From Psychroflexus longus (GTDB lineage: Bacteria; Bacteroidota; Bacteroidia; Flavobacteriales; Flavobacteriaceae), in the NCBI RefSeq assembly GCF_020164595.1, contig NZ_JAIQZE010000005.1:1-64000 (forward strand): 64,000 nucleotides of DNA, in the 5' to 3' direction. Shown here piece after piece: positions 18,147 to 57,787 of the stretch. Position numbers and translations under genes: made by a program. Every line of letters starts with the position of its first letter. Within the stretch, counting starts at the first letter, position 1. Under the pieces are notes generated by a model. It made no database searches and was not told the origin of the DNA. It worked only from the letters and a program-made list of their open reading frames with translations.

Positions 18147-20200
18147 ATGAATAAAGTAAAATTAATGTTTGTTGCTAAGCAGCTTCAACATTGCTTTTTT
18201 CGTGTCAGGATTCCAATAAGGAAACTGTTGACGAAAGTAGAGGTATTGCCCTACAATACATGGATACCACAGTAAACCCGCAAGATGATTTCTACAGCTA
18301 CGTCAATGGTGGCTGGATGAAAACAGCGGAAATTCCAGATGATAGGACGTCCTGGGGTGGATTTCAAATCTTGAGAAAATCCACGGACAACGACGTTTTA
18401 GAAATTTTGAAAACAGCTGAAGAATCAGGAAAGTACTCAGCAACTTCAGATCAAGGAAAAGCAATTTCAGTCTTCAATTCTATCATGGACACATTGTCTA
18501 GAAATGTTGCTGGAGTTGATCCAATCATGGATAAACTAGACCTTATCAATGAAGTAAAGACTAAAAAAGATATTCAAAAACTCTTAGCTGAGTATCCAAC
18601 AGCTATTTCTGCACCATTTTTTGGTGTGTCGTCCTATTCAGATCCAGATGATAGTGACACAAATGCAGCTTATGTAGGAACAGGAAGCCTTGGTCTACCA
18701 GATAGAGATTATTACCTGGATCAGGATGATAAATCCAAAGAGATAAGAGAGCAGTATAAAGAGCATATCGTAAAAATGCTGGCTTATTTTGGCGGATCTA
18801 AGGAAGATGCAAAATTTAGAGCAGAAACTATTTTGAAGCTAGAGACTCAATTGGCCGGTCCGAGACTGGATAAGGTAGCTAGAAGAGATTTTAGAAATTT
18901 CAATAATCGTTATGCTGTAAATGATCTTAACACGGTTACCAAAAATATTGATCTAAAGGCTTACATGACAGATCTTGGAATCGAAAAATTACCAGATACT
19001 GTTTTGGTCATGGAACCAAAATACATGGAAGCTCTGGATTTCATGATTGCAGAAACACCTTTAGAAGATCTTAAAACATTAATGACCTGGTCTACCATTA
19101 ATTCTGCCGCCAATCAACTCTCTACTGAAGTAGCTACTACCAATTGGGAATTTTATAGCAAAACTCTAAGTGGTGCAAAAGCGCAAAGACCTTTAGATGA
19201 AAGAGCCCTTTCTGTGGTTAACGGGAGCATTGGTGAAGCTGTAGGGAAACTCTACGTTGACCAAAAATTCCCGCCAGAGGCTAAAGAAAAAGCTGAAAAC
19301 ATGGTTGGAAATGTGATTACAGCCTTCAAAAACAGAATTCAAAATTTAGAGTGGATGGAGGATGAAACCAAAACTAAGGCTATTGAAAAACTGGATAAAT
19401 TCACCGTTAAAATTGGTTATCCAGATGAATTTGAAGATTACAGCAACTTAAGTGTGACTCCAGAGAATACATACTACGAAAACATGCAGGCGGTTTCTAA
19501 ATGGAACTACAAAGATAACCTCAGCAAAATAGGCGAGCCTGTGGATAAAACTGAATGGGGTATGTCTCCACAAACGGTAAATGCGTATTTCAATCCACTA
19601 TATAACGAAATAGTCTTTCCTGCTGCTATTTTACAGCCTCCATTCTACGATTACAAAGCAGATGCTGCGGTAAATTATGGTGGAATTGGAGCCGTCATCG
19701 GTCATGAAATCTCTCATGCTTTTGATGACAGTGGATCAAGATTTGATGCCGATGGAAATTTAAAAAACTGGTGGTCTGATGAAGATCTTGAAAAATTTAC
19801 AGAGCGTGGAGACGACTTGGCTGAGCTTTACAGTAGTATCGAAGTTTTAGATAGTGTTTACATCAATGGTAAATTTACCCTAGGTGAAAACATAGGTGAT
19901 CTTGGTGGTGTTTTAGGTGCTTACGACGGATTGATGTTGCATTATGAAAATTAAGAAAAGCCAGGAAAAATCGATGGTTTTACGCCAGAGCAACGCTTCT
20001 TTATGTCGTGGGCAACGGTCTGGAGAACCAAGATAAGAGATGAAGCCTTGAGAACTCAGGTGAAAACAGACCCTCACTCGCCTGGGCAATACAGAGCTTA
20101 TGTGCCATTACAAAACGTGGATGCTTTCTATGAAGCCTTCAACGTAAAAGAAGGAGATAAACTCTATATCGCTCCAGAGGAAAGAGTCAAAATTTGGTAA
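18147..20200 (+). pseudogene. M13-family (neprilysin/PepO-like) metallopeptidase, frameshifted and interrupted by a stop
   Basis: The ATG at 18147 reads MNKVKLMFVA, and the frame is then lost near 18174-18181. One base less would continue it as AASTLLFSCQDSN, a proper lipoprotein signal. The main frame then runs through the whole M13 domain with intact zinc motifs VIGHEISHAFDD and ENIGDLGG. It meets an in-frame TAA at 19952-19954, after which the same frame continues as EKPGKIDGFTPEQRFFMSWATVW to the natural end at 20200. Without the stop it would be a secreted zinc peptidase of normal length (about 685). Two separate lesions suggest a real pseudogene, though base-calling errors are possible. 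Confidence 0.85.
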
Positions 20201-38800: not shown

Positions 38801-39203
38801 GAAGATTTATGAAATCTACAAGCAACAACAAAAGCTCAGAAATCAGTTAAAAGACAGAATCAAACAGCTGGGACTAGAAGATAATTCCAGTGAATTAAAA
38901 AAGAGTTTGGATAAACTGGAGCAGGAGTTATTGATGAAAGGCTTTAGTAGTGATTTACTGAAACAAATGGAAAATATAAATCACCAGCTTCTAAGACTGG
39001 ATAAAGCTGCAAATCAACAAGGACAAGATGATGAACGAGAAGCAGAAACCCGAAAAAGAGAGCTTAATGCAGCATCATCAAACTGGGAAGAAAAGGCTAA
39101 AGAATATTTTAACACAAACGAGATTTTAAACAGACAACAATTACCTTTGCAGCCTGAATATAAAAAGCTGATTAATATCTACTTCGATGGAAAGTCCAAT
39201 TAA
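35811..39203 (+). CDS. DUF4175-family giant membrane protein
   Basis: 1130 residues. Two membrane helices at about 25-48 and 53-76 and a third at about 154-172 anchor a large region. This is made of beta-rich Ig-like segments (about 195-490), then a long Glu/Lys/Gln coiled coil (about 495-720), a Ser/Glu/Asp-rich low-complexity block (about 725-775), a conserved helical part (EDAEMLRQILDNLITFSVEQEDLM), a Gly/Lys/Glu-rich linker (about 905-985) and a final helical segment. This composition is typical of the DUF4175 family of Bacteroidota. Its role is unknown; its place with ybeY and mnmG is often kept in flavobacteria. Its last 17 bp overlap ybeY. Confidence 0.85.
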   Translation: MQNYKIIENKLERFIKKFYTNLLIKGALLFVGLSLLLFIFGATLEYFLWFESGFRTLLFWTIIAIEAVFFFKLILIPSSQLLKLSKGIDYTEASSQIGNHFPEVNDKLKNILQLKAQGADDELVIASIEQKSKELRTVPFQLAVDFRGNVKYLRFLIIPVLVLFAIWISGFGDSFSYSYKRIVNFNTAYEAPAPFQFSILNKDLNAKKGKSFQLNVQTLGKVKPEDVFISLDGEEVRLQESNGIYSYTFKNVSEARKFRLKANKVTSPTYELNALDIPVVKDMKMKLNYPEYINQSNTSISGTGNVSVPEGTLIEWVISTETTDQVEFLSEVDTINFDVDNSEFTLKQIQKSNKNYSIATSNSNFKNYDVLNYSINVIQDEFPKLKLEQKKDSLLTEQSYFLGKLTDDYGLTNLQIVYYTVDNQGDKSVIKLSLSKGTYSEFSYAFPNEKLKLKPGTEYQYYFEVFDNDRVNGRKSTKSDVFSFRKKTALEESSENLKRQNNSVEKLSEELQQRKENSREIKDLQNKQKKENTLSYTEKQKLDNFIEQQKQQLEIMKNYSERLKEDFKKMDAEQQDKAKENLQNRLEKNQEQIEKNQKLLEELDKLKDQINQEELNEKLESFDRESEKQEKNLEQLLELTKRFYVEKKAEKLSEELDNLSKEQEELSESEENSSEAQEKLNQKFDQLKEELEKLDEKNEELKAPMELGSDEELSEEIDQDQEEAKESLESSESEESDSDEKRSSQKNGKQKQKDASEKMKSLSQKMKNSMASSSMEQTSEDAEMLRQILDNLITFSVEQEDLMGGFKNISNSNPIYASKLKRQAELRENFKHVDDSLYALAMRTPMIQETVNNIISDINFNIEKSLGRLAENEVRKGTSSQQYTMMYANELSNMLDDALDQMQSQMNGMGQAKPGSGKPGEQLSDIIKSHEELKKQMEKGKSEGEGQDGKQPQKGENGKEGEGKSDLQGDKGADGNDVEKQDGEKKGSRGQEGQMSGKIYEIYKQQQKLRNQLKDRIKQLGLEDNSSELKKSLDKLEQELLMKGFSSDLLKQMENINHQLLRLDKAANQQGQDDEREAETRKRELNAASSNWEEKAKEYFNTNEILNRQQLPLQPEYKKLINIYFDGKSN

Positions 39204-39618
39204 TTTTTACAGTAAGACCAAGTTTGATTTAAAGAGCAAAAAGAAACATGCCAATTGGTTAAAAGCTGTCATTGAAAGTGAGAAAAAAGATGTCGAAGGC
39301 ATAAACTATATCTTCTGCAGTGATGAAGATTTGCTATATATGAATCAGAGGTATCTGGATCATGATACGTTTACAGATATTATCACTTTTGATTATTCTG
39401 AAGACGACTCCATTTCAGCTGAAATTTATATCAGTATAGATCGAGTAAAAGACAATGCTAAAAACTTCAAAGTAAAATTTGAAAATGAATTGAAAAGAGT
39501 TTTGGTCCATGGCATTTTACATTGCTGCGGATACGGTGATTCTACAGAAGAATCAAAAGCTAAAATGAGAGCCTTAGAAAATGATAAAATGGAATTGTTC
39601 CACGTGGAACAAAAATAG
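39187..39618 (+). CDS. ybeY: Endoribonuclease YbeY (rRNA maturation factor)
   Basis: 143 residues, starting within the end of the DUF4175 gene. The UPF0054 motif reads VHGILHCCGYGDSTEE: the first two zinc His residues are present, while the third ligand position holds Asp rather than the usual His of GYDH. I recall Asp there in Bacteroidota homologues, so it is probably a clade trait. The enzyme matures the 3' end of 16S rRNA. The C-terminal codons (LFHVEQ) are written by a parS-like palindrome. Confidence 0.9.
   Translation: MESPINFYSKTKFDLKSKKKHANWLKAVIESEKKDVEGINYIFCSDEDLLYMNQRYLDHDTFTDIITFDYSEDDSISAEIYISIDRVKDNAKNFKVKFENELKRVLVHGILHCCGYGDSTEESKAKMRALENDKMELFHVEQK
39596..39611. promoter_or_regulatory. 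parS: parS-like ParB-binding site 1
   Basis: TGTTCCACGTGGAACA is a perfect 16-bp palindrome that differs from the common bacterial parS (TGTTTCACGTGAAACA) at two symmetric positions. It lies within the last codons of ybeY. A second identical copy follows after mnmG. ParB spreading from such sites organises and partitions the chromosome origin. Confidence 0.75.
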
Positions 39619-39623
39619 AAGTT

Positions 39624-41495
39624 ATGTTTAAAGATACGTATGATGTTATTGTAGTAGGAGCTGGCCACGCAGGAAGTGAGGCAGCGGCAGCGGCGGCAAA
39701 TATGGGAAGCAGCACATTGCTGGTGACTATGAATTTGCAAAACATCGCGCAAATGTCGTGTAATCCTGCCATGGGAGGAATTGCAAAAGGACAAATATTA
39801 AGAGAGATAGATGCACTAGGCGGTTATAGCGGTCTGGTGTCAGATACAAGTGCTATTCAGTTCAAGATGCTCAACAAATCCAAGGGGCCTGCTATGTGGA
39901 GTCCTAGAGTTCAAAGCGACAGAATGCTGTTTTCACAACATTGGAGAGAGCGCTTAGAACAAACAGAAAATCTTGATTTTTATCAAGAAATGGTTTCTGG
40001 TCTTATTATAGAAAAAAACAAAGTCAAAGGTGTCAAGACCTCTTTGGGTTTGGAAATTAAAGCTAAAACCATCATTCTTACCAATGGAACTTTTTTAAAT
40101 GGATTAATTCATATTGGTGATAAAAACTTTGGAGGCGGTAGGGCAGGAGAAAAAGCTTCCTTTGGAATCACAAAAGAACTTGAAGATATCGGTTTCGAAG
40201 CTGGACGAATGAAAACAGGAACTCCACCGAGAGTGGATGGAAGATCGCTTGACTTTTCTAAAATGATAGAACAGCCGGGTGATGAAGAACCCTGGAAATT
40301 TTCATATTCTAATGAAACCAAACCGTTGGAGAAACAAAGAAGTTGCTGGATGTCTTATACTTCGCCAGAAGTACATAATATTTTGAAAGAAGGTTTTGAT
40401 AGGTCTCCAATGTTTAATGGATCCATAAAAAGTACTGGACCAAGATATTGTCCAAGCATAGAAGACAAAATTCACAGATTTGCAGATAAAGACAGACATC
40501 AGATGTTTGTTGAACCTGAAGGGTGGAATACTGTTGAGTACTACGTCAATGGATTTTCTACTTCACTTCCGGAAGATATTCAATTTAAAGCTTTAAAACA
40601 ATGTGCTGGGTTTGAAAATGTAAAATTTTTCAGACCAGGATATGCTATTGAATATGACTATTTTCCACCAACACAATTAAGACATACATTAGAAACTAAA
40701 CTAGTGGACGGTCTATACTTTGCTGGTCAAATCAATGGAACTACGGGATATGAAGAAGCAGCATCTCAAGGTTTGATTGCAGGAATCAATGCGGCGTTGA
40801 AAGTTCAAGAAAAAGATGAGTTCACATTATCAAGAAGCGAAGCTTATATAGGAGTATTAATTGATGACCTGATCACCAAAGGGACTGAAGAGCCATACAG
40901 AATGTTTACCTCGAGAGCGGAGTATAGAACTTTATTAAGACAAGATAATGCTGATTTCAGATTAACGGCTAAAGGTTTTGAAATAGGATTGGCATGTAAA
41001 GAACGTATGAAGTTAATGAAAGAGAAGCAAAGAAAATCAGATGCATTTGTAGACTTCTTCAAGAACCAAAGTGTAACGACTGATGAAATAAATCCAATTT
41101 TGGAAGAAAAAAATTCGGCCAAAGTAGATCAACAAGGAAAACTTTTTAAAATATTTGCTCGACCTAATATCACCATGCAAGACATGAGAAAATTAGAGAG
41201 TGTAGAAAATTTTATTAATGAACATAATGTAAATAATGAAGTTTTAGAACAAGTTGAAGTACAAGTAAAATATGCTGGATATATTGAAAAGGAGAAATTG
41301 AATGCAGATAAACTAAATCGTCTTGAGAATGTAAGGATCCCAGAGCACTTTGACTATTCATTATTAAAATCAATGTCATTTGAAGCAAGAGAGAAACTAA
41401 CGAAGATCAAACCGCGAACAGTATCACAAGCTTCTAGAGTAAGTGGAGTAAATCCGAGTGATGTTTCAGTTCTTTTAGTTCACATGGGAAGATAA
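39624..41495 (+). CDS. mnmG: tRNA uridine-5-carboxymethylaminomethyl modification enzyme MnmG (GidA)
   Basis: 623 residues. FAD-binding start VIVVGAGHAGSEAAAAAANMG, then SCNPAMGGIAKGQ, TGTPPRVDGRSLDFS, the GQINGTTGYEEAASQGL motif and the C-terminal helical tRNA-binding domain (RPNITMQDMR..., KIKPRTVSQASRVSGVNPSD). Works with MnmE to modify the wobble uridine of several tRNAs. The gene is placed between two parS-like sites; gidA is commonly origin-proximal in bacteria. Confidence 0.96.
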   Translation: MFKDTYDVIVVGAGHAGSEAAAAAANMGSSTLLVTMNLQNIAQMSCNPAMGGIAKGQILREIDALGGYSGLVSDTSAIQFKMLNKSKGPAMWSPRVQSDRMLFSQHWRERLEQTENLDFYQEMVSGLIIEKNKVKGVKTSLGLEIKAKTIILTNGTFLNGLIHIGDKNFGGGRAGEKASFGITKELEDIGFEAGRMKTGTPPRVDGRSLDFSKMIEQPGDEEPWKFSYSNETKPLEKQRSCWMSYTSPEVHNILKEGFDRSPMFNGSIKSTGPRYCPSIEDKIHRFADKDRHQMFVEPEGWNTVEYYVNGFSTSLPEDIQFKALKQCAGFENVKFFRPGYAIEYDYFPPTQLRHTLETKLVDGLYFAGQINGTTGYEEAASQGLIAGINAALKVQEKDEFTLSRSEAYIGVLIDDLITKGTEEPYRMFTSRAEYRTLLRQDNADFRLTAKGFEIGLACKERMKLMKEKQRKSDAFVDFFKNQSVTTDEINPILEEKNSAKVDQQGKLFKIFARPNITMQDMRKLESVENFINEHNVNNEVLEQVEVQVKYAGYIEKEKLNADKLNRLENVRIPEHFDYSLLKSMSFEAREKLTKIKPRTVSQASRVSGVNPSDVSVLLVHMGR

Positions 41496-41511
41496 TGTTC
41501 CACGTGGAACA
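41496..41511. promoter_or_regulatory. parS: parS-like ParB-binding site 2
   Basis: A second exact TGTTCCACGTGGAACA, 1.9 kb from the first. It fills precisely the 16 bp between the mnmG stop (41493-41495) and the next ATG (41512), so it is under no coding constraint. This makes a chance origin unlikely. Confidence 0.78.
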
Positions 41512-42339
41512 ATGCTTATGGATTATTCAAAATTGACTATAAAAGACGAGGCCTTTACCAAAGATAAATTCAATTTAATTGTTGATGATAGTGGAGTTTT
41601 GAAAACTGATCCTAGGCCAAACAATTTAGCAGACTATTATAATTTTGGTGATTACATTTCTCATCAGTCTGATAAAAAAACATTGCTTCACAGCGTCTAT
41701 AATTTAGTCAAACTAAGAATGTTCAAAATAAAGTTAGATCTGATTAAAGAGTATGAAAATGAGATCGAAAAAGTTTTAGATTTTGGATGTGGTACGGGGG
41801 ACTTTGTAAAATACGTTGAGTCAAAAAACATAAAGGCCGAAGGAATTGAGCCAAATCCGATTGCTTTTAAAAAAGCTGAAATAAATAAGGTAAGGGTTCA
41901 TAAAAATTTAAAAGAAATCGAAAGTAAGTTTGATGCTATTACTTTATTTCATGTGTTAGAGCATGTGGATGATTACAATAAAACACTAGAGGATTTAATT
42001 TCAAAATTAAATTCAAATGGACTCTTATTAATAGCTGTTCCAAATTATAAATCTTACGATGCGAATTATTATAAAGAAAAATGGGCTGGCTGGGATGTTC
42101 CTAGACACCTTTGGCACTTCAATAGAAAAAACATAAAAGTATTAGCCGAAAAACATAATTTAGAATTAATCAAAATAAAACCAATGCCATTTGATGCTTT
42201 TTATATTTCAATGATATCTGAAGCATATAATGGAAATTCCAAAGCAAAAGGAATTTGGAGAGGTTTGATTTCAAATGTTTCAGCTTTAAAGTCTAAAGAG
42301 TACTCGTCTAACTTGTTTTTGCTTCAAAAGAGGGCGTAG
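41512..42339 (+). CDS. Class I SAM-dependent methyltransferase
   Basis: 275 residues. SAM motif I in VLDFGCGTGDFVKYVES (about 85-101), motif II-like GIEPNPIAFKKAE, then TLFHVLEHVDDYNKTLE and the Methyltransf_23-type AVPNYKSYDANYYKEKWAGWDVPRHLWHF. Many such enzymes methylate quinones or cell-surface sugars; the target is unknown. A second ATG at 41518 is an equally possible start. Confidence 0.82.
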   Translation: MLMDYSKLTIKDEAFTKDKFNLIVDDSGVLKTDPRPNNLADYYNFGDYISHQSDKKTLLHSVYNLVKLRMFKIKLDLIKEYENEIEKVLDFGCGTGDFVKYVESKNIKAEGIEPNPIAFKKAEINKVRVHKNLKEIESKFDAITLFHVLEHVDDYNKTLEDLISKLNSNGLLLIAVPNYKSYDANYYKEKWAGWDVPRHLWHFNRKNIKVLAEKHNLELIKIKPMPFDAFYISMISEAYNGNSKAKGIWRGLISNVSALKSKEYSSNLFLLQKRA

Positions 42340-42502
42340 GCGTCGTAAAAACTGAAATGTAGACAAGTACATCAATCGCAAAAATAAAAGCTTTTAAATC
42401 AAATAAAAATAAGGTTTATGCTATAAGGGTTCATTATAAATTTAAATATTTTAATAAGCTTTTATAATCAAAATAAATTTATTGTACTGAAGCATCTTTT
42501 TT

Positions 42503-42510
42503 TACATTTG
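42503..42510 (+). promoter_or_regulatory. -7 promoter element of the OmpH-like gene
   Basis: TACATTTG matches TAnnTTTG. An ATTG at 42481-42484 lies 18 nt upstream as a weak -33 element. The ATG is 18 bp downstream at 42528. Confidence 0.5.
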
Positions 42511-42527
42511 CCAAAATTTAAAATATC

Positions 42528-43052
42528 ATGAAAAAATCAATTTTAAGCTTAGCCGTAGTTCTATTACTAATATCTTGTGGTCAGGATAAAACTGCTTATG
42601 TAGATAACACAGTTTTGATTCAGGACTATTATAAAATGAAAAGCACCGAAGCTAGGTTTGAGAAAAAAAGCCAAAAACTTTCGGAAGAATTGGAATCTGT
42701 TGCGGATGAATTTCAAAAAGAGGTTCAAGAATTTCAGGAAGGAATGAACAGGATGTCTACAAAAGATAGAGAGCGAAGACAAAATGAATTGATGCAAAAG
42801 CAACAGAGACTTCAACAGCGTCAACAACAAAAAAGCCAAATGCTAAGACAAGAAAGTGATCAAGCAATTGATTCGTTGATTACTGAGGTAAAAGATTTGG
42901 TAGCTGAATATGGAGAAAAAAGAGGTTATGCCTACATTTTTGGATCAAATGAATCTGCTAATATTATGTATGCGAAAGAAGGTTTGGATATTACTGAAGA
43001 GGTTTTGAAGGAAATAAATTCTAGTGAGGAGAATAAAGAGACTGAAAAATAA
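42528..43052 (+). CDS. OmpH/Skp-like lipoprotein
   Basis: 174 residues. Lipoprotein signal (AVVLLLISCGQ, Cys about 17), a short strand (AYVDNTVLIQDYYKM), a long coiled coil rich in Gln/Arg/Lys (about 40-120) and the C-terminal EYGEKRGYAYIFGSNESANIMYAKEGLDITEEVL segment. This is the Skp/OmpH layout, a trimeric periplasmic chaperone for outer-membrane proteins, here with a lipid anchor. Single gene ended by a shared terminator. Confidence 0.85.
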   Translation: MKKSILSLAVVLLLISCGQDKTAYVDNTVLIQDYYKMKSTEARFEKKSQKLSEELESVADEFQKEVQEFQEGMNRMSTKDRERRQNELMQKQQRLQQRQQQKSQMLRQESDQAIDSLITEVKDLVAEYGEKRGYAYIFGSNESANIMYAKEGLDITEEVLKEINSSEENKETEK

Positions 43053-43075
43053 TCTCAATAAATTATATAAATATG

Positions 43076-43110
43076 AAATAAAGCCAACTTGAAAGTTGGC
43101 TTTATTTTTT
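43076..43110. terminator. Bidirectional terminator overlapping the holB stop
   Basis: AAATAAAGCCAAC (43076-43088) and GTTGGCTTTATTT (43095-43107) pair fully around TTGAAA. It terminates the OmpH-like gene and, on the other strand, holB, whose stop codon (43102-43104) lies inside the right arm. Confidence 0.85.
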
Positions 43111-49215: not shown

Positions 49216-49647
49216 TTATTGACAGGCAATTTTATCTACTCTTCTTTCATGACGACCACCTTCAAAAGGAGTTTCCAGAAAAACCTTTACAAATTCAAGG
49301 GCTTCTTGAACAGAAACAAATCTTGCGGGGATACTCAATACATTGGCATTGTTGTGTTGTTTGGCCAGAGCAACTAATTCAGTATTCCAGCAAAGTGCAG
49401 ATCGAACACCTTGATGTTTATTGGCAGTCATATTTGCACCATTTCCGCTACCACATATAATGATTCCTAAATCAGATGTACCACTTTCCACATCATTTGC
49501 TACCGGATGCACAAAATCTGGATAATCTACACTTTCTTCTGAATCTGTTCCGTGATTAATTATCTCTATAGATTGAGATAATAGGTAGTTTTGTATAGCA
49601 AATTTATAGTCTGTTCCGGCGTGGTCATTTCCAATAGAAATTATCAT
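49216..49647 (-). CDS. rpiB: Ribose-5-phosphate isomerase B
   Basis: 143 residues from the ATG at 49647 (MIISIGNDHAGTDYKF); a start 10 codons upstream lacks family similarity. Catalytic Cys in LGIIICGSGNGANMTANK, and HNNANVLSIPARFVS. Interconverts ribose- and ribulose-5-phosphate. First gene of a leftward unit beginning at the origin region. Confidence 0.94.
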   Translation of the reverse strand: MIISIGNDHAGTDYKFAIQNYLLSQSIEIINHGTDSEESVDYPDFVHPVANDVESGTSDLGIIICGSGNGANMTANKHQGVRSALCWNTELVALAKQHNNANVLSIPARFVSVQEALEFVKVFLETPFEGGRHERRVDKIACQ

Positions 49648-49679
49648 TTTATTTGGTTTAAGAATTTGAAAAAACAAAG

Positions 49680-50270
49680 TTAAGATTTAATTCATTATTT
49701 ATATAGCAAGGATAGTATTAATAGTAAAATACTGATTTACAATAACTTGAAAAATAATAAACAATTGTGGATAACTTCATTTAGAAAGGGACTTTATAGA
49801 CTTCAGTTTTGGAAAAATTGTGGATAACTTAGGTAAAAAAAGTAGCTCTATTATTTTGTAATTCAAACAAAAAATGGAGGTGGATAAAAAGATTGATTAA
49901 CAAAATTTTTAGAGATTGAATTTCAAAAAAGTTTTGCTTTCACTTTTAAAAGTTATCCACACCAAATCCTAAAAAAGTTATTCCTGATCTTATGTGTAAA
50001 CTCAAAATAAGACTGTGGATAACTAAATCAAATTGATATGAAAATCAGACTTTTAAATTCAAATAAAAGATATTTGAATTGTGGATAAACTAAAAGTATT
50101 AAAAATCAAAATGAATTTTATAAAAGTTATCCAGTTATACACGAGCAATAATAGTCATCATGTTTAATTTAAATTTTAATAAAAAAAAAATAATAATATT
50201 ATAGAGTGTGGATAAGTGCAAAAAGTAAAGGATTTGAATAAGATTGAAATCGTGTTGAATTCAAAACAAT
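49680..50270. other. oriC: Probable chromosomal replication origin (oriC)
   Basis: About 600 bp of non-coding, strongly AT-rich DNA between rpiB and the DUF2007 gene. Six perfect DnaA boxes (TTATCCACA) are present: on the minus strand at 49766-49774, 49819-49827, 50014-50022, 50080-50088 and 50207-50215, and on the plus strand at 49953-49961. Near matches are at 49879-49887 (one mismatch) and 50127-50143 (TTATCCAGT, TTATACACG). A 40-bp A/T-only stretch at about 50163-50203 could be the unwinding element. Two parS-like sites lie 8-10 kb to the left. dnaA itself is not here, as is common in Bacteroidota. Confidence 0.85.
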
Positions 50271-50510
50271 CTAGACAATGTGTAAGTGATTTTCGAAATT
50301 ATAATCTTCCAAAATTGCTTTAGCTTCTTCGAGATCTTCGGGATGTACTTTCAAGAAAATTCCTCCCAAAGCATTGGAGTAAAAAGGTATTACACCAATT
50401 ACAGTTTCATTTTGAAAAAAAAATCTAATGTTTTCTTTTTCTAATAAGAGTTTAAGAATAGTATATTCGTGAGGATAAGTAAACACAGCCAACTTGATGA
50501 AGTTGTTCAT
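50271..50510 (-). CDS. DUF2007 domain protein
   Basis: 79 residues: KLAVFTYPHEYTILKLLLEKENIRFFFQNE...GGIFLKVHPEDLEEAKAILEDY. This is the small ferredoxin-like DUF2007 fold, sometimes called a putative signal-transducing protein; function unknown. It stands next to the probable origin. Confidence 0.8.
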   Translation of the reverse strand: MNNFIKLAVFTYPHEYTILKLLLEKENIRFFFQNETVIGVIPFYSNALGGIFLKVHPEDLEEAKAILEDYNFENHLHIV

Positions 50511-50574
50511 TTTTATTTTAAAAGTAAGAAATATAAACAGCTTTATTACACCTTTGTATCAGTTTTAATGAATA

Positions 50575-50733
50575 TTAAAGCAAAGTTGACAGATATGACA
50601 CAGGTTCTTTCAATTCCATATCTATAGCGTAGGTTTGTTGATCAAGGAATGTTTTTATATAAAGATATATAGCACAAAATCCTACCAGAAAGATAATTAT
50701 AAAAACAATATATACTTTTGCAGTTTTAGACAC
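50575..50733 (-). CDS. Small single-helix membrane protein (GTG start)
   Basis: 52 residues from a GTG at 50733 to a TAA at 50575-50577. The head SKTAKVY leads into one strong membrane helix (about 8-27, IVFIIIFLVGFCAIYLYI) and a soluble tail. A TAAATTTG on the minus strand (50757-50750) is a good -7 element about 10 nt before the transcription start, which supports expression. No family recognised. Confidence 0.45.
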   Translation of the reverse strand: MSKTAKVYIVFIIIFLVGFCAIYLYIKTFLDQQTYAIDMELKEPVSYLSTLL

Positions 50734-50920
50734 TTGAATAAGTTTGATACAAATTTATAATAATATTAACAATAAATTATAAATTAAAATTATTTAATTG
50801 AAAATTTAACATCATCAAATTGTTAAATACTTGAAACAAGGGAGTTGACAAAGATTTTCTTTACCAATTTCGCATTCCAATTATAATATATTACATTTAT
50901 CAAAGATTATTAAAATACTT

Positions 50921-53143
50921 ATGAGTAAAAAGAAAAAAGGCAAAAAGCCTTTCCAAGCCCCAGCCAATCCGGATGGTGGTTTATCCAAAAAAATTCTAGA
51001 CATATTTAAAAAGCAATCAGAAAAGAGTTTTGATTTCAATTATGTTTTAGATAAACTAAAAATAGAAGATACCAAAACAAGAAATAAAGTCATTCGTCTT
51101 TTGGGTCAATTGACTGCTAAAGGTCAACTTAAGCATGTCGAAGACAAGAAGTTTCAGTTCGACGGTTTAGAAGATTTCCATACTGGAATCATAGATATGA
51201 CCTCTCGTGGAGATGCTTACGTTATTGTGGAAGATATGGAGAACGATATCTATATTTCCAATAAAAACCTGAATCATGCTTTGGATGGCGATGAAGTAAA
51301 AGTTTACGTTTTTAAAAAACGCGAAAAGTCCAAGTCTGAAGGTGAAGTGGTTTCCATTCTTACCAGAAATAAAACTGATTTTGTTGGGGTTTTACACAAG
51401 AAAGAGAAATTTGGTTTTGTGGTGGTCGCCAGTTCCAAAATGTACACCGATATCTTTATTCCTAATGACAAAATGCATGATGCTAAAGATGGTCTCTTAG
51501 TAAAAGTCCGCATTTTGCAGTGGAAAGACAAAGATGATTCTCCAAAAGGAGAAATCACCGAAGTTCTGGGTGTTCCTGGAGAACACAATACCGAAATGCA
51601 CGCTATTTTAGCGGGCTACGGACTTCCCGAACAATTTCCTCCGGAAGTAGAAGAATTTGCCAACAGCATCGATACTAAAATCCATCCCGCAGAAATCAAA
51701 AAGCGACGGGATCTCCGAGATACCTTGACCTTTACGATAGATCCAGCCGATGCTAAAGATTTTGATGATGCCTTGAGCTTCAAAAAAATGGACAATGGCA
51801 ATTTTGAAATCGGGATTCATATTGCGGATGTAGCGCATTACCTTCAGCCTGGAACCATTCTGGATGACGAAGCCTACAATAGAGCAACTTCTATTTATCT
51901 GGTAGATCGTGTGGTGCCCATGTTGCCAGAAGTACTTTCCAACGGCGCATGTTCGTTAAGACCTAATGAAGAAAAATATACCTTTTCAGCTTTGTTTGAA
52001 CTCACTCCAAAAGGAGAAGTCAAAAGCGAATGGTTTGGACGTACGGTCACGTATTCCGATGCGCGTTTTGCTTACGAAGAAGCGCAATACATTATAGATT
52101 CTGAAGACAAAAATATACCGGCGGACATTTCATTGTCCAAAACTAGCTACGATGTAGATCCGGAAATTGTTGACGCCCTAACCACTTTAAATAACCTTGC
52201 CAAAACCATGCGTAAGAAGCGTATGCAGGAAGGGGCCATTTCATTTGATAAAGTAGAGGTTAAATTTCATTTGGATGAAGACAATAACCCACAAGGGGTT
52301 TATGTGAAGACTAGTCAGGATGCCAACAAATTGATTGAAGAATTTATGTTGCTGGCCAACCGAAAAGTTTCCGAATTTATAGGCAAACGCAAACCACCCA
52401 AAACTTTTGTCTACCGTTGTCATGACGAGCCGAAAGACGATAGATTGGAAGCCTTGAATACGGTGATTTCAAAATTTGGCTATAATATCAACATTCACAA
52501 TAAGAAAAATATTGCCAGTGCATTAAATTCCCTTTTGGAAGACGTGCAAGGCAAAAAAGAACAAAATCTGGTGGATACCTTGACCATTCGTACCATGAGC
52601 AAGGCCTATTATTCTACCCAAAATATTGGCCATTACGGTTTGGCCTTCGATTATTACTCACACTTTACTTCGCCTATTCGTCGTTATCCCGATGTGATGG
52701 CGCACAGATTGCTGCAACGCTATCTGGACAACGAACCAAGTGCCAGCGAATCCGAATACGAAGACAAATGCAAGCATTCCAGCGAGATGGAAAAACTGGC
52801 GACCAATGCCGAGCGGGATTCCATCAAGTACATGCAGGTCAAATACATTCAAGACCAAGCAGAAACCGAATTTAAAGGCGTGATTTCTGGAGTGACCGAC
52901 TTTGGTATATTTATCGAAATCATTGAGAACAAATGCGAAGGCATGACCCGTCTTAAGGACATCTCCGACGATCACTACGACTTCAACGAAGAGCACTACG
53001 CCATCATTGGCCGCCGCACCAAGAAGATGTATCAGCTTGGAGACGAAGTTTATGTACGCGTGAAAAAAGCCGATTTAGTGAAGCGTACCATCGATTTTGA
53101 ACTGCTGGGCTCGGTAGAAGAAGTCGCGATTGAAAGCGAATAA
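50921..53143 (+). CDS. rnr: Ribonuclease R
   Basis: 740 residues: N-terminal winged helix, cold-shock domains (DGLEDFHTGIIDMTSRGDAYV...), the RNB catalytic domain with DPADAKDFDDALSF (metal-binding Asp residues), HYGLAFDYYSHFTSPIRRYPD, and a C-terminal S1 domain (GVISGVTDFGIFIEIIEN). A processive 3'-5' exoribonuclease that degrades structured RNA. First rightward gene from the probable origin. Confidence 0.96.
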   Translation: MSKKKKGKKPFQAPANPDGGLSKKILDIFKKQSEKSFDFNYVLDKLKIEDTKTRNKVIRLLGQLTAKGQLKHVEDKKFQFDGLEDFHTGIIDMTSRGDAYVIVEDMENDIYISNKNLNHALDGDEVKVYVFKKREKSKSEGEVVSILTRNKTDFVGVLHKKEKFGFVVVASSKMYTDIFIPNDKMHDAKDGLLVKVRILQWKDKDDSPKGEITEVLGVPGEHNTEMHAILAGYGLPEQFPPEVEEFANSIDTKIHPAEIKKRRDLRDTLTFTIDPADAKDFDDALSFKKMDNGNFEIGIHIADVAHYLQPGTILDDEAYNRATSIYLVDRVVPMLPEVLSNGACSLRPNEEKYTFSALFELTPKGEVKSEWFGRTVTYSDARFAYEEAQYIIDSEDKNIPADISLSKTSYDVDPEIVDALTTLNNLAKTMRKKRMQEGAISFDKVEVKFHLDEDNNPQGVYVKTSQDANKLIEEFMLLANRKVSEFIGKRKPPKTFVYRCHDEPKDDRLEALNTVISKFGYNINIHNKKNIASALNSLLEDVQGKKEQNLVDTLTIRTMSKAYYSTQNIGHYGLAFDYYSHFTSPIRRYPDVMAHRLLQRYLDNEPSASESEYEDKCKHSSEMEKLATNAERDSIKYMQVKYIQDQAETEFKGVISGVTDFGIFIEIIENKCEGMTRLKDISDDHYDFNEEHYAIIGRRTKKMYQLGDEVYVRVKKADLVKRTIDFELLGSVEEVAIESE

Positions 53144-53575: not shown

Positions 53576-54283
53576 ATGACTAAAAAACAAAAGAAAATTG
53601 AGGAATTTCTTGAATTACCTAAAAATAAATTACTTGAAGAATTCGGAAGAGGGAGTCATATTCCCGGTTCAGGAAGCGCTGCTGCCTTATCTTCACTAAT
53701 TGGAATTGAACTTCTTAGAACTGTTTCTAAATTAACTCAAACAAAATCAACATATGCGAAACATCATTCGCAAATGGCATATATTCAAAAGGAATTAGAA
53801 GAAAAGTATAAACCTGAGATAGTCCAGATATTTTATGATGATTCTACCGAATTTGCAAAAGCATCAGAATACAGAATATTATGAGACAATGAAAAAGATC
53901 CGAAACAAAAAAAGAAACACGGAAGACAAGCTTCTGAACAATTAAAAATAGCAACTGAAATTCCAATAGAACTCTGTGAATTAAATTTTAAACTAATTGA
54001 ATATGCATTGTCTGTTTTTGACAACGGATATAAAGCAACTCGGGGTGATGCAGGTGTAGCAATTAGTAATTTCCTCTCTGCTATATCTGGAAAATTATTT
54101 ATTGTTTTATTAAATATTCGTGTTTCACAAAAAAGTAAATGGACAGAAGAAAAAAGAATTCAAGCTTAAAAATTAACATCTGATTTCCTGAAAACACAAA
54201 AAGATGCATTTTCTAGAGTGATAGAATTATATACTGAAGGTTTACCAGAAGGACAAAAAGCAATAGAATTCTTAGACGAATAA
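53576..54283 (+). pseudogene. Cyclodeaminase/cyclohydrolase-like (FTCD_C) gene with two internal stops
   Basis: One frame of 235 codons from ATG (53576) to TAA (54281-54283), broken by TGA at 53882-53884 and TAA at 54167-54169. The start KLLEEFGRGSHIPGSGSAAALSSLIGIELLRTVSKLT resembles the formiminotransferase-cyclodeaminase C-terminal family (GGGSAAALAGALGAALV), and the part after the stop (LIEYALSVFDNGYKATRGDAGVAISNFL) fits the end of that fold. No frameshift is needed, so decay is recent or the stops are sequence errors. Lies at the left edge of the accessory island. Confidence 0.7.
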
Positions 54284-54564: not shown

Positions 54565-54810
54565 ATGAAAAAAGTTATTATCCTACTTATTCAGTTCATT
54601 GCAATTGTTGTAGCTTTTATATGGTGGTTATCAGATGGAAATATTATGTCTATTCTCGCTTTACTAACAGCAACCGCTACATTTCTTGTAACCCTGTTTT
54701 TTACAAAAAAGAATAAGCAAAAAAGTCTTAGGGATAAATTCTCACAAAAAGCTGGCAATAATTCTAAGCAATATATGTCTAAAGGTGACATGAAAATTGG
54801 TAATGATTAA
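54565..54810 (+). CDS. Two-helix membrane protein with C-terminal shared motif; candidate effector of an ABC-3C system
   Basis: 81 residues. Two membrane helices (about 3-22 and 27-47), a basic stretch (TKKNKQKSLRDK) and the tail FSQKAGNNSKQYMSKGDMKI (59-78). This tail aligns without gaps with residues 4-23 of the next protein (12 of 20 identical). Its stop shares one base with the next ATG. In ABC-3C systems the third component carries a variable effector domain. Here the likely membrane-disrupting effector is a separate small protein linked by this motif. Function is inferred; no homologue recognised by name. Confidence 0.65.
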   Translation: MKKVIILLIQFIAIVVAFIWWLSDGNIMSILALLTATATFLVTLFFTKKNKQKSLRDKFSQKAGNNSKQYMSKGDMKIGND

Positions 54811-55397
54811 TGGCAGAGTTTAAACAGAATGCCGGACCTAATTCTGAACAGTACGCTTCAGAAGGTACAATGTATATTAAAAAGGGAATTCATTTTCACT
54901 ATGAAAAACCCGTGGATGAAAAATATATCCAGTATCTAAAACTGGTAGAAGAATTTGAAGAAGAAGTTGAAAATGGGGATTCCAACATTGGAGATTTTAT
55001 TGATAAATTATTATACTATACTAATCGCTCGTATGATGATAAATTAGATTTAAAAGAAAAGCTAAAATTAGGTGGTTATAATGAATCCTATTACAAAAAA
55101 GCAAATGCACTAAAAGAAAAATACGCCATGAATTTTTCGGTTGATGAACTATCAATTTCTGCCCAAAAAATTCATGCTTATATTCTTGCAGAGGTTTCCT
55201 ATAGATTCTTCTTACATATTAATCCATTTATAGAGGAAAATTATTCCAAAGTAGATATTTCAGAATTGATTAATATAAAAGTTGTTGAACCTATTGAGGC
55301 AATTTTATCTCAAAAAAATGTTTTAAATATTTATAAAGAAGATATTATGTGCATGATTTACTTTCTTACAGGAAATTGTCATATAAATTGGAATTAA
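54810..55397 (+). CDS. ABC-three-component system, C-terminal-domain-type protein
   Basis: 195 residues. It opens with the shared motif FKQNAGPNSEQYASEGTMYI (4-23), then the all-helical domain I associate with ABC-3C third components: KLVEEFEEEVENG, a KLDLKEKLKLGGYNESYYKKANALKEKY segment, SISAQKIHAYILAEVSYRFFLHINPFIEE, and a C-terminal helix pair. Coupled to the upstream gene by one-base overlap, and one base from the next gene. Usually an effector domain is fused in front of this domain; here only the short motif precedes it. Confidence 0.65.
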   Translation: MAEFKQNAGPNSEQYASEGTMYIKKGIHFHYEKPVDEKYIQYLKLVEEFEEEVENGDSNIGDFIDKLLYYTNRSYDDKLDLKEKLKLGGYNESYYKKANALKEKYAMNFSVDELSISAQKIHAYILAEVSYRFFLHINPFIEENYSKVDISELINIKVVEPIEAILSQKNVLNIYKEDIMCMIYFLTGNCHINWN

Positions 55398-55398
55398 T

Positions 55399-55878
55399 AT
55401 GATATTGTACCATCCTCTAACAGATGCATATCATAATCTTTATAGAAATTTATCTATACTTCAATCTTTTGAAAAATCTTCGATTGAATCCGACAGACTA
55501 CTTATATATAATTATTTCTTTTTATTCCCACAAGAATTAAGAAGAACAACCCTCCCTAAAGAATTTAGCAGTTATAAAAAAATTAAGTTTCAAAATAAAT
55601 TTAATTCTATAAAGAATTATCAAACGGTAATAGGCAGGTTAAGAACGGTTCAAGAAATAACAATTCAAAGTTTAATTGGTTATAGATTTGTCGATCAGAA
55701 AATTTACTTAAATGAGAATAAGATCTCTCTTAATGATTTAGCGTTTGAAAAAAAAATGCACTTAGATGAAGTTCATAAAAATGTAATTACCCTTTATAAA
55801 GAATATTTTCAATTTTTAAACCTTCGAGAATTGAAGGAAAGAACTAAAATTTTAGAATATAGATATGAGCAACCTTAG
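55399..55878 (+). CDS. ABC-three-component system, middle component
   Basis: 159 residues starting MILYHPLTDAYHNLYRNL, as in middle components of ABC-3C systems (short, helical, with a winged-helix-like middle: QELRRTTLPKEFSSYKKIKF... TVIGRLRTVQEITIQSLIGYRF). It probably bridges the ATPase to the effector-bearing component. Overlaps the ATPase gene by 14 bp. Confidence 0.65.
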   Translation: MILYHPLTDAYHNLYRNLSILQSFEKSSIESDRLLIYNYFFLFPQELRRTTLPKEFSSYKKIKFQNKFNSIKNYQTVIGRLRTVQEITIQSLIGYRFVDQKIYLNENKISLNDLAFEKKMHLDEVHKNVITLYKEYFQFLNLRELKERTKILEYRYEQP

Positions 55879-57787
55879 ATTGAATGAACTGATTGTAGTT
55901 CAGGGTGACAAATATGTCTATCACGAAAAATTTGATCATAAAGTCAATATTATTCGTGGGGATAATAGTACTGGAAAATCATCTATTGCAAATTTTATAT
56001 TTTTCATTCTTGGAGGCGAATTCACTGAATTTTTACCAGAAGCGAAAAGATGTGATTACGTCCTAGCAGAGTTATTAATTAATGATACTCCTATAACTGT
56101 AAGAAGGAATATAGATAAAAATGACAAATACCATGTCATGACTAAAAGACCAATGTATATTAACATTGCTCCTCTGGAACAAGCAATCCAATCACAAATA
56201 GAAGGATGGAAGATATATCAATATTCTCAGACAGATAGACAAGAGTCATTTAGTCAAAAATTATTTCAACTTTTTAATTTCCCGGATATTTCCTCAGAAA
56301 ACCAGGAGACCATCACTATGAATCAAATTTTACGTTTAATCTATATTGATCAACTTAGTAATCTTAGTGATTTAATGCGAAATGAAGATTTCGATTCTCC
56401 GTCTGTACGAGATGCTGTCGGAAATTTATTATTGGGCACATATAGCGATGAAAAACTCAAATTCGAACGCCAGTTAAAAGAGGTTAAAAAAGAGTATGAT
56501 AAAATTTCATCCCAAACTACTGCAATGAAAGAAGTTTTTAAGGAATCTTCTTTCGAATATAATACCGCTATAATTGAAGATGAAATTCAGAAATTGGAAC
56601 AGCAATTAAAGAAAGTAAATACCTCAATTACTAATCCAGAAGATATATTAAAAAACGCAAAGTCTTCAGTAACAAAAAAAGAATTAGATAGTAATCGCCA
56701 TAAACTAATTCAAATAAAAACTAAATATCAAGATCTAAATGAAGAATTAAAAAATACGAATTTAGCGTACATTGATGGTAAAGAATTTATTAAAGTCATT
56801 GAGGACAAAATTACAGACATTGATATTTCAATAAAAACTAGAAAAGCCTTCGGAGCTTTAGAATTAAAGCATTGTCCCGCTTGCTTTGAAAAATTAGAAA
56901 AAGCAAATGAGCATCAATGTTCTTTATGCAAACAAGATATATCGGATGAAGTGAATCTTTCGAGATTCTCAAGAATGAAGTTGGAATTGGAAATGCAATT
57001 GAAGGAATCAAAAAATCTATTGCAGGAAAGGGTGATCAGAATAAAAAAATTAAAACAATCAATTAGAGAGACTAGTAGAACGTTAAACTCTGCTCAAAAG
57101 GACTACGATCTTTTAACGAAAAAGACTGGTAATACAGCTTCCAATGTATTAGAGCAAATATTTGAAAAGAAAGGAAGTTTAAAATTTGAAATCCAATATT
57201 TACAAAAACAGTTGGACTTAATCTCCTCATATGAAGAATATAGAATTAGGGCAGAGCAATTAAAGTCGCAACAAGAAAGATTAAAAAATCAAATTGAAGA
57301 TTTAAACTTTAGCCAAAGGAAAAAATCCATTGAAGCATATAATAAAATCAATTATTATGCATTAAAATTAGTTCACTCTGATGGTGATTATGAGGAAAAA
57401 TTCGAAGAAGGAAAAAAGACATCTATAAGCTTTAGAGAAAACAAATATTATTTAGATAATCGAAATAGATTCTCTGCAAGTTCTATGGTTGTATTAAAAA
57501 ATTGTATCCGGTTTGCCATATTTTTTGCCTCAGTAGAATTAGATTTTTTTCGATTTCCAAAATTTATTCTCTGTGATAATATAGAAGATAAAGGAATGGT
57601 TGATGAAAGAAGTAAAAACTTTCAAAACAAAGTAGTTGAGATCGCTAATTCAGATGCTTTAAAAAATAAAAACTACCAAATAATTTTTACTACATCGAAG
57701 ATTTCAGAAAAATTAGATATTCCTGAATACACTGTTGGACAATCCTATACTCCAAACAATAAGAGTCTTAAACTTGATAGTATATAA
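55865..57787 (+). CDS. ABC-three-component system, Rad50/RecF-like ATPase with CxxC pair
   Basis: 640 residues. Walker A GDNSTGKSS (32-40), a Q-loop region, long coiled coil (about 195-330 and 365-500) interrupted by a zinc-binding tip C337-x2-C340...C352-x2-C355, a signature-like FSASSMVVLKN (about 535) and Walker B FPKFILCDNIEDKG (about 560-573), then an H-loop region IIFTTSK. This is the SMC/Rad50-like ATPase expected in ABC-3C conflict systems. Such ATPases are thought to sense foreign nucleoprotein and release the effector. Visibly more AT-rich than rnr upstream, in keeping with transfer. Confidence 0.82.
   Translation: MSNLRLNELIVVQGDKYVYHEKFDHKVNIIRGDNSTGKSSIANFIFFILGGEFTEFLPEAKRCDYVLAELLINDTPITVRRNIDKNDKYHVMTKRPMYINIAPLEQAIQSQIEGWKIYQYSQTDRQESFSQKLFQLFNFPDISSENQETITMNQILRLIYIDQLSNLSDLMRNEDFDSPSVRDAVGNLLLGTYSDEKLKFERQLKEVKKEYDKISSQTTAMKEVFKESSFEYNTAIIEDEIQKLEQQLKKVNTSITNPEDILKNAKSSVTKKELDSNRHKLIQIKTKYQDLNEELKNTNLAYIDGKEFIKVIEDKITDIDISIKTRKAFGALELKHCPACFEKLEKANEHQCSLCKQDISDEVNLSRFSRMKLELEMQLKESKNLLQERVIRIKKLKQSIRETSRTLNSAQKDYDLLTKKTGNTASNVLEQIFEKKGSLKFEIQYLQKQLDLISSYEEYRIRAEQLKSQQERLKNQIEDLNFSQRKKSIEAYNKINYYALKLVHSDGDYEEKFEEGKKTSISFRENKYYLDNRNRFSASSMVVLKNCIRFAIFFASVELDFFRFPKFILCDNIEDKGMVDERSKNFQNKVVEIANSDALKNKNYQIIFTTSKISEKLDIPEYTVGQSYTPNNKSLKLDSI

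Follow-up and report, generated by a model that had tools for sequence, protein, structure and literature searches.

Where does replication of the Psychroflexus chromosome start, and does a gap that lies apart from dnaA and carries a bunch of DnaA boxes mark the place? The question is raised by the gap between rpiB and a DUF2007-like gene in the marine bacterium Psychroflexus longus, here examined within a window of 64,000 nucleotides (the whole stretch of DNA analysed, G000:C39:1-64000, from a draft genome of 2.95 Mb in 43 contigs). A literature search on the origin of replication in Psychroflexus found no paper on the genus, only one on Rickettsia. An oriC was taken to be marked by a cluster of DnaA boxes, by an A/T-rich element beside them and by a skew switch in complete relatives, an adjoining dnaA being common, though not required. 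The gap is very probably where replication starts: that positions 49680-50270 are oriC, with a DnaA array, opening at an A/T stretch and bidirectional replication, is given a probability of about 0.94. This origin had been proposed by a sequence-only reading of the same DNA, and is supported by the bunching of the boxes, their kept layout, a conserved A/T unit and the skew-derived origins of two relatives.

The left neighbour of the gap, rpiB (49216-49677, minus strand; LacAB_rpiB, Pfam PF02502, 184.5 bits), points away from it, as does rnr on the right (50921-53143, plus strand; Pfam RNB, 367.8 bits). Among the matches listed for RNase R, the product of rnr, the closest named records are from Psychroflexus (95% identity to P. 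lacisalsi and P. montanilacus). The sequence-only reading had the genes on both sides run away from the gap, which is correct for rpiB and rnr but not for the nearest right-hand gene: the DUF2007-like gene (50271-50510, minus strand; Pfam PF09413, 25.6 bits, just below the cut-off of 25.7) is transcribed towards the gap. The mnmG/gidA gene (39624-41495, plus strand; GIDA, 542.9 bits) lies 8 kb to the left. That dnaA is not adjacent had been stated correctly; it is on another contig (G000:C23), and is also far from the corresponding site in the relatives G025 and G019. Further to the right, a 102-aa ORF (53576-53884, plus strand), whose FTCD_C match is limited to positions 3-83 of 182, is by its sequence apparently a short or broken formiminotransferase-cyclodeaminase-type gene. 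Soon after rnr, an A/T-rich region (54565-57787; GC 0.27-0.32 in 2-kb windows) likely encodes an ABC-three-component system, with ORFs of 81 aa (without a Pfam match), 195 aa (CTD9 of ABC-3C systems, 106 bits) and 640 aa (an AAA_23 ATPase), and may be a mobile island of defence genes within a few kb of the origin.

Six exact copies of TTATCCACA occupy a 450-bp part of the rpiB-DUF2007 gap, five in one orientation, in agreement with the earlier count. Boxes 1 (49766-49774), 2 (49819-49827), 4 (50014-50022), 5 (50080-50088) and 6 (50207-50215) are on the minus strand, and box 3 (49953-49961) is the sole box on the plus strand. Near-matches, also reported earlier, are indeed present: TTATCCACC (49879-49887, minus strand), which has one mismatch and is not kept in the relatives listed, and an overlapping plus-strand pair with two mismatches each, TTATCCAGT (50127-50135) and TTATACACG (50135-50143). 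The seventh exact TTATCCACA of the window is at 19540, and 100 shuffles gave a mean of 0.66 and a maximum of 4 copies per shuffle. Since the whole genome has 47 exact matches to TTATCCACA and 42 to its backwards control, the motif is not enriched genome-wide. It is the bunching, not the genome-wide abundance, that is extreme: with 47 sites placed randomly, about 5e-12 such clusters would be expected, and nowhere else in the genome does the list of exact matches contain more than two per 500 bp.

The A/T-rich element beside the boxes is an A/T-only stretch at 50163-50203, which measures 41 bp (40 bp had been claimed) and is the proposed strand-opening site (DUE); no other A/T run in the 64-kb window reaches 30 bp. 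GC content is 22.3% in the gap (49648-50270) versus 34.9% in the window. The weak box pair lies on the left of the stretch. Its first member, at 50127, reads TTWTCCAGT in 11 of 11 aligned genomes, whereas the second is the left box of an apparent unwinding unit, and is TTATTAACA-like in most family members. A 4-nt spacer separates this left box from a lower-strand run of five NAN triplets (50148-50162; 3'-TAT TAT CAG TAG TAC-5', as read from the sequence), for which the family consensus is ATAATAATCATCAT. Box 6, the right box of the unit, faces the left box across the stretch, and the upper strand after it also has five NAN triplets. Such triplets are common anyway in A/T-rich DNA, and the runs, considered on both sides of the stretch, would qualify as trio-like only.

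A profile of the unit (96 positions from 20 origins, comprising left box, triplet run, A/T core and right box) matched 52 of 65 rpiB loci of the family at E<0.01, a number that drops to 49 when the cut-off is E<0.001. As 19 of these loci were in the profile, the matches among the other 46 number 33 and 30, respectively. None of 21 rpiB loci from other families was matched, and among 186 control loci (2.37 Mb) the sole matches below 0.01 were three origins included among them. The consensus of 53 unit rows is AGTTATnCnGnTATTAACAnnCnATAATAATCATCATTTTTTTTTTAAAATTTTAAAA, an A-rich run and then ATAATATATAnTGTGGATAACT, the boxes again facing across the A/T core. Thirteen of the 65 family loci were without the unit at E<0.01, three of them ending at contig ends. 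Loci missing it include L057, L063, L064, L067, L068 and L069 (from G014, G001, G011, G018, G008 and G006, respectively; the L069 locus is shortened by a contig end). These six genomes group on the DnaA tree, so that branch may have an origin that lies elsewhere or has diverged.

By analogy with other origins, DnaA would fill the fixed-spacing array, consisting of the six strong boxes and the weak pair at 50127-50143, with the molecules bound to the weak pair and to box 6 bracketing the 41-bp stretch. From both bracketing sites DnaA would then spread onto single strands and open the duplex, with the helicase loaded at the opened A/T stretch and replication proceeding in both directions. The basal unwinding system (BUS) of Bacillus subtilis calls for a box and, no more than 16 nt from it, three or more NAN triplets, preferably 3'-GAT (PMC8287927); it resembles this arrangement in having a weak box pair, a 4-nt spacer and a NAN run beside an A/T-rich stretch. 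It differs in that the triplet preferred there is 3'-GA-5', as given in an excerpt of PMC10721633, while those in the window begin 3'-TA or CA. A further difference is that a second box in the window faces the stretch from the opposite side.

A position for the origin independent of the boxes was sought in strand skew, and for this the contig itself was poorly suited: no more than about 50 kb of it lies left of the gap, its raw GC skew has no clear switch, and in both window and contig the raw skew follows gene direction. For these reasons the test was moved to complete relatives, and third-codon GC skew was used with gene strand fitted out and ranges obtained by block bootstrap. A sparser first fit (40 stretches of G025 and 20 of G019) placed the origins at 2.18-2.24 Mb and 0.94-1.04 Mb, respectively, some 0.1-0.2 Mb off the site; none of 100 block permutations equalled either of these first fits. 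Twenty stretches, placed around the candidate, were then added per genome. The fuller fit to G025 (4,321,832 bp, 60 stretches) gave a best origin at 2.06 Mb (bootstrap 1.82-2.30), 46 kb from the homologous site at 2.014 Mb, and that to G019 (2,555,922 bp, 40 stretches) one at 1.11 Mb (bootstrap 1.01-1.17), 24 kb from the site at 1.134 Mb. The site itself ranked 24 of 433 grid points in G025 (delta 15.6) and 7 of 256 in G019 (delta 13.4). The sequence-only reading had held that a skew minimum elsewhere would speak against an origin here; in the fuller fit the switch in both relatives comes close to the site, which falls inside both bootstrap ranges.

These fits bear on two other accounts of the locus. 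It is very improbable that the gap is a DnaA-titrating or recharging site (datA- or DARS-like) with replication starting elsewhere. Such a site would fit with predicted DnaA binding and with dnaA not being adjacent, but the skew-fitted origins of the relatives are within 46 and 24 kb of the gap, a conserved A/T core lies between facing boxes, and the rest of the genome nowhere exceeds two exact boxes per 500 bp. The usual neighbours of oriC are dnaA and mnmG, and the true origin might accordingly be sought at dnaA or directly beside mnmG, an account that is slightly less probable again. At dnaA the skew has the wrong sign, in G025 as in G019. The AAA-domain match of dnaA is at 612,818 in G025, where the site is at 2013732, and at 415 in G019, where the site is at 1133812; the record of G019 starts at dnaA, and on this 2.56-Mb circle the site lies 1.13 Mb away. 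No exact box occurs before mnmG (39203-39624) or after it (41495-43102).

The case for mnmG comes in part from two other Flavobacteriaceae, in which, in excerpts of the papers concerned, it is named beside the origin. Ori-Finder placed the origin of Mariniflexile next to mnmG, with dnaA out of line with the skew plot (PMC11278836, the figure legend of which has its labels swapped), and likewise placed the origin of Algorimicrobium next to mnmG (PMC12843772). The disagreement of dnaA with skew in Mariniflexile is like that in the relatives studied here (PMC11278836), while in the excerpts mnmG alone is named as the neighbour (PMC11278836, PMC12843772). As mnmG is only 8 kb from the gap, the published places are compatible with an origin beside rpiB at that resolution. 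The closest precedent for an rpiB-adjacent oriC is Tenacibaculum, a member of the same family with the same neighbour gene, for which Ori-Finder put the origin adjoining rpiB in six of seven circular chromosomes and near rpiB in the seventh, as stated in an excerpt of PMC9864904. The Psychroflexus locus joins this already predicted type; it differs in that the excerpt of PMC9864904 gives the prediction without a box layout, whereas layout, conservation and a co-varying DnaA residue are described here.

Comparison with relatives, in 56 of 60 of which rpiB was detected, showed how far the layout is kept. Each of the 11 Psychroflexus-type genomes (that of the window included) has the full set of six boxes, as TTATCCACA or one-letter variants, with identical orientations. 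The spacings, 53/134/61/66/127 bp in the window, are 53-55, 133-134, 61-62, 65-67 and 126-127 bp across the 11, and remain fixed while the distance from box 1 to rpiB varies between about 118 and 203 bp. In two loci, L060 (G009) and L062 (G010), the best-scoring array is about 700 bp from rpiB rather than 118-203 bp, and something therefore lies between them there. The order rpiB-oriC-DUF2007-rnr had been expected in relatives; the rpiB-oriC side of it is kept, but DUF2007 is beside the array in only some of the 11, as judged by eye. Mean column identity in an alignment of the 11 gaps with flanks is 62%. Least probable of all is a function tied to rpiB, as a conserved control region or an RNA gene, which the conservation of the gap and its place upstream of that gene might suggest, given that no Rfam family reaches the gathering score in 49500-50950, that the conserved parts are the fixed-spacing DnaA boxes and the A/T core, and that the G009 and G010 array is so far from rpiB.

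A scan for the oriC architecture scored 86-90 of 90 in the 11 genomes, whereas none of 38 control strand-stretches, each of 20 kb, scored above 62. A relaxed scan, whose box and wider spacing limits were fixed only after the first results were known, gave 35 of 66 family loci a higher score than any of 145 control pieces, with G087, at the least, off the expected place; two of 21 loci of other families also scored above all the control pieces. The same spacings occur in near relatives (e.g., G299, G022 and G019) with TTATTAACA- or TTATCAACA-type boxes. Judged from these alignments and scans, the scaffold is clear in Psychroflexus and its near relatives and fades outwards across the family. Neither the six-box scaffold nor a co-variation of DnaA with its boxes was found in print among open-licence PMC papers.

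Such a co-variation is suggested by the DnaA recognition helix, which reads RDHSTVLHSC in the 11 Psychroflexus-type genomes, RDHSTVLHAC in G071 and G138, and RDHATVLHAC in 27 other family members whose DnaA was read directly (G299 among them). In 249 family genomes the Ala pattern was found in 233 and the Ser/Thr pattern in four (G000, G012, G071 and G138). A wider draw of 397 family genomes gave the same four and no further Ser-type lineage. Among 13 genomes of other families, 12 have Ala and one Ser (G053), which is unusable for co-variation because its rpiB locus lacks the unit.

Box letters were tabulated for the 52 family genomes that have the unit; the other 13 family loci, which lack it, were dropped. 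In the 13 Ser genomes, position 6 is C in 12 left boxes (G004 has A) and in all 13 right boxes; all TTWTNxACA 9-mers of the region give C 74, T 6 and A 5. For the 39 Ala genomes (14 read directly and 25 assigned by pattern), the left box has A in 36 and C in two (G070 and G190), with one mis-pick, the right box has A in 23, C in 15 and T in one, and the 9-mers give A 123, C 29, T 12 and G 3. These counts include two wrongly picked boxes, the left one of G095 (really AAATTAACA) and the right one of G142 (where the match ends early). Ala DnaA thus occurs with both A and C, and Ser DnaA with nearly only C. Within one genus, G299 has Ala DnaA with a left box CAATTAACC (by eye) and a right box TTATTAACA, although the unit profile gives it no significant match, and G071 has Ser DnaA with CTATTCACA and TTATCCACA boxes, but with TTATCAACA as box 3 and TTATCTACA as box 4. 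On a DnaA tree of 42 rows from which domain IV was left out, three changes are needed to account for Ser, at least two of them forced by supported branches; a single clade of the 13 Ser rows was not rejected (p-AU 0.257), and with two supported or three unsupported independent pairs a sign test is unable to reach 0.05. The position-6 letter seems to go with the Ser/Ala residue of DnaA, a good hypothesis from sequence comparison that is statistically not established.

A role for this residue would be in keeping with what is reported elsewhere. In E. coli, according to an excerpt of PMC5742627, the TnCACA half of the box is recognised by the helix to which T435 belongs, and the T435M protein binds boxes defectively; T435 is also listed among the contact residues for C. 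difficile in part of PMC7561715. For Epsilonproteobacteria, an excerpt of PMC5043019 proposes that variation at residue 435 explains box differences. The residues held responsible there belong to helix 5 in domain IV of DnaA and include the equivalent of E. coli 435, as would also be the case here. The differences described in that excerpt concern box position 5, between classes and with no common box pattern (PMC5043019), whereas those described here concern position 6, within one family and on a kept scaffold. A more general reading, for which the chances appear evenly balanced, is that the Flavobacteriaceae origin has a fixed scaffold (about 53-55/133-134/61-63/62-67/126-128 bp, with orientations - - + - - - in the clearest cases) on which the box letters shift with the DnaA helix, RDHATV (Ala) pairing with A at position 6 and RDHSTV (Ser) with C, and in which two facing units open one stretch.

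The identification of the rpiB-DUF2007 gap as oriC very probably locates the replication origin of Psychroflexus. Numbering such chromosomes from dnaA would be misleading, because the G019 record, for one, starts at dnaA and thus far from its origin. If the more general reading is true, the origin would amount to an experiment of nature, initiator and sites having changed jointly while the sites stayed put. Related bacteria that share the scaffold of the origin but differ in their box letters and in the recognition residue of DnaA provide the material for a direct test of how an initiator can acquire a new specificity and still keep its origin.
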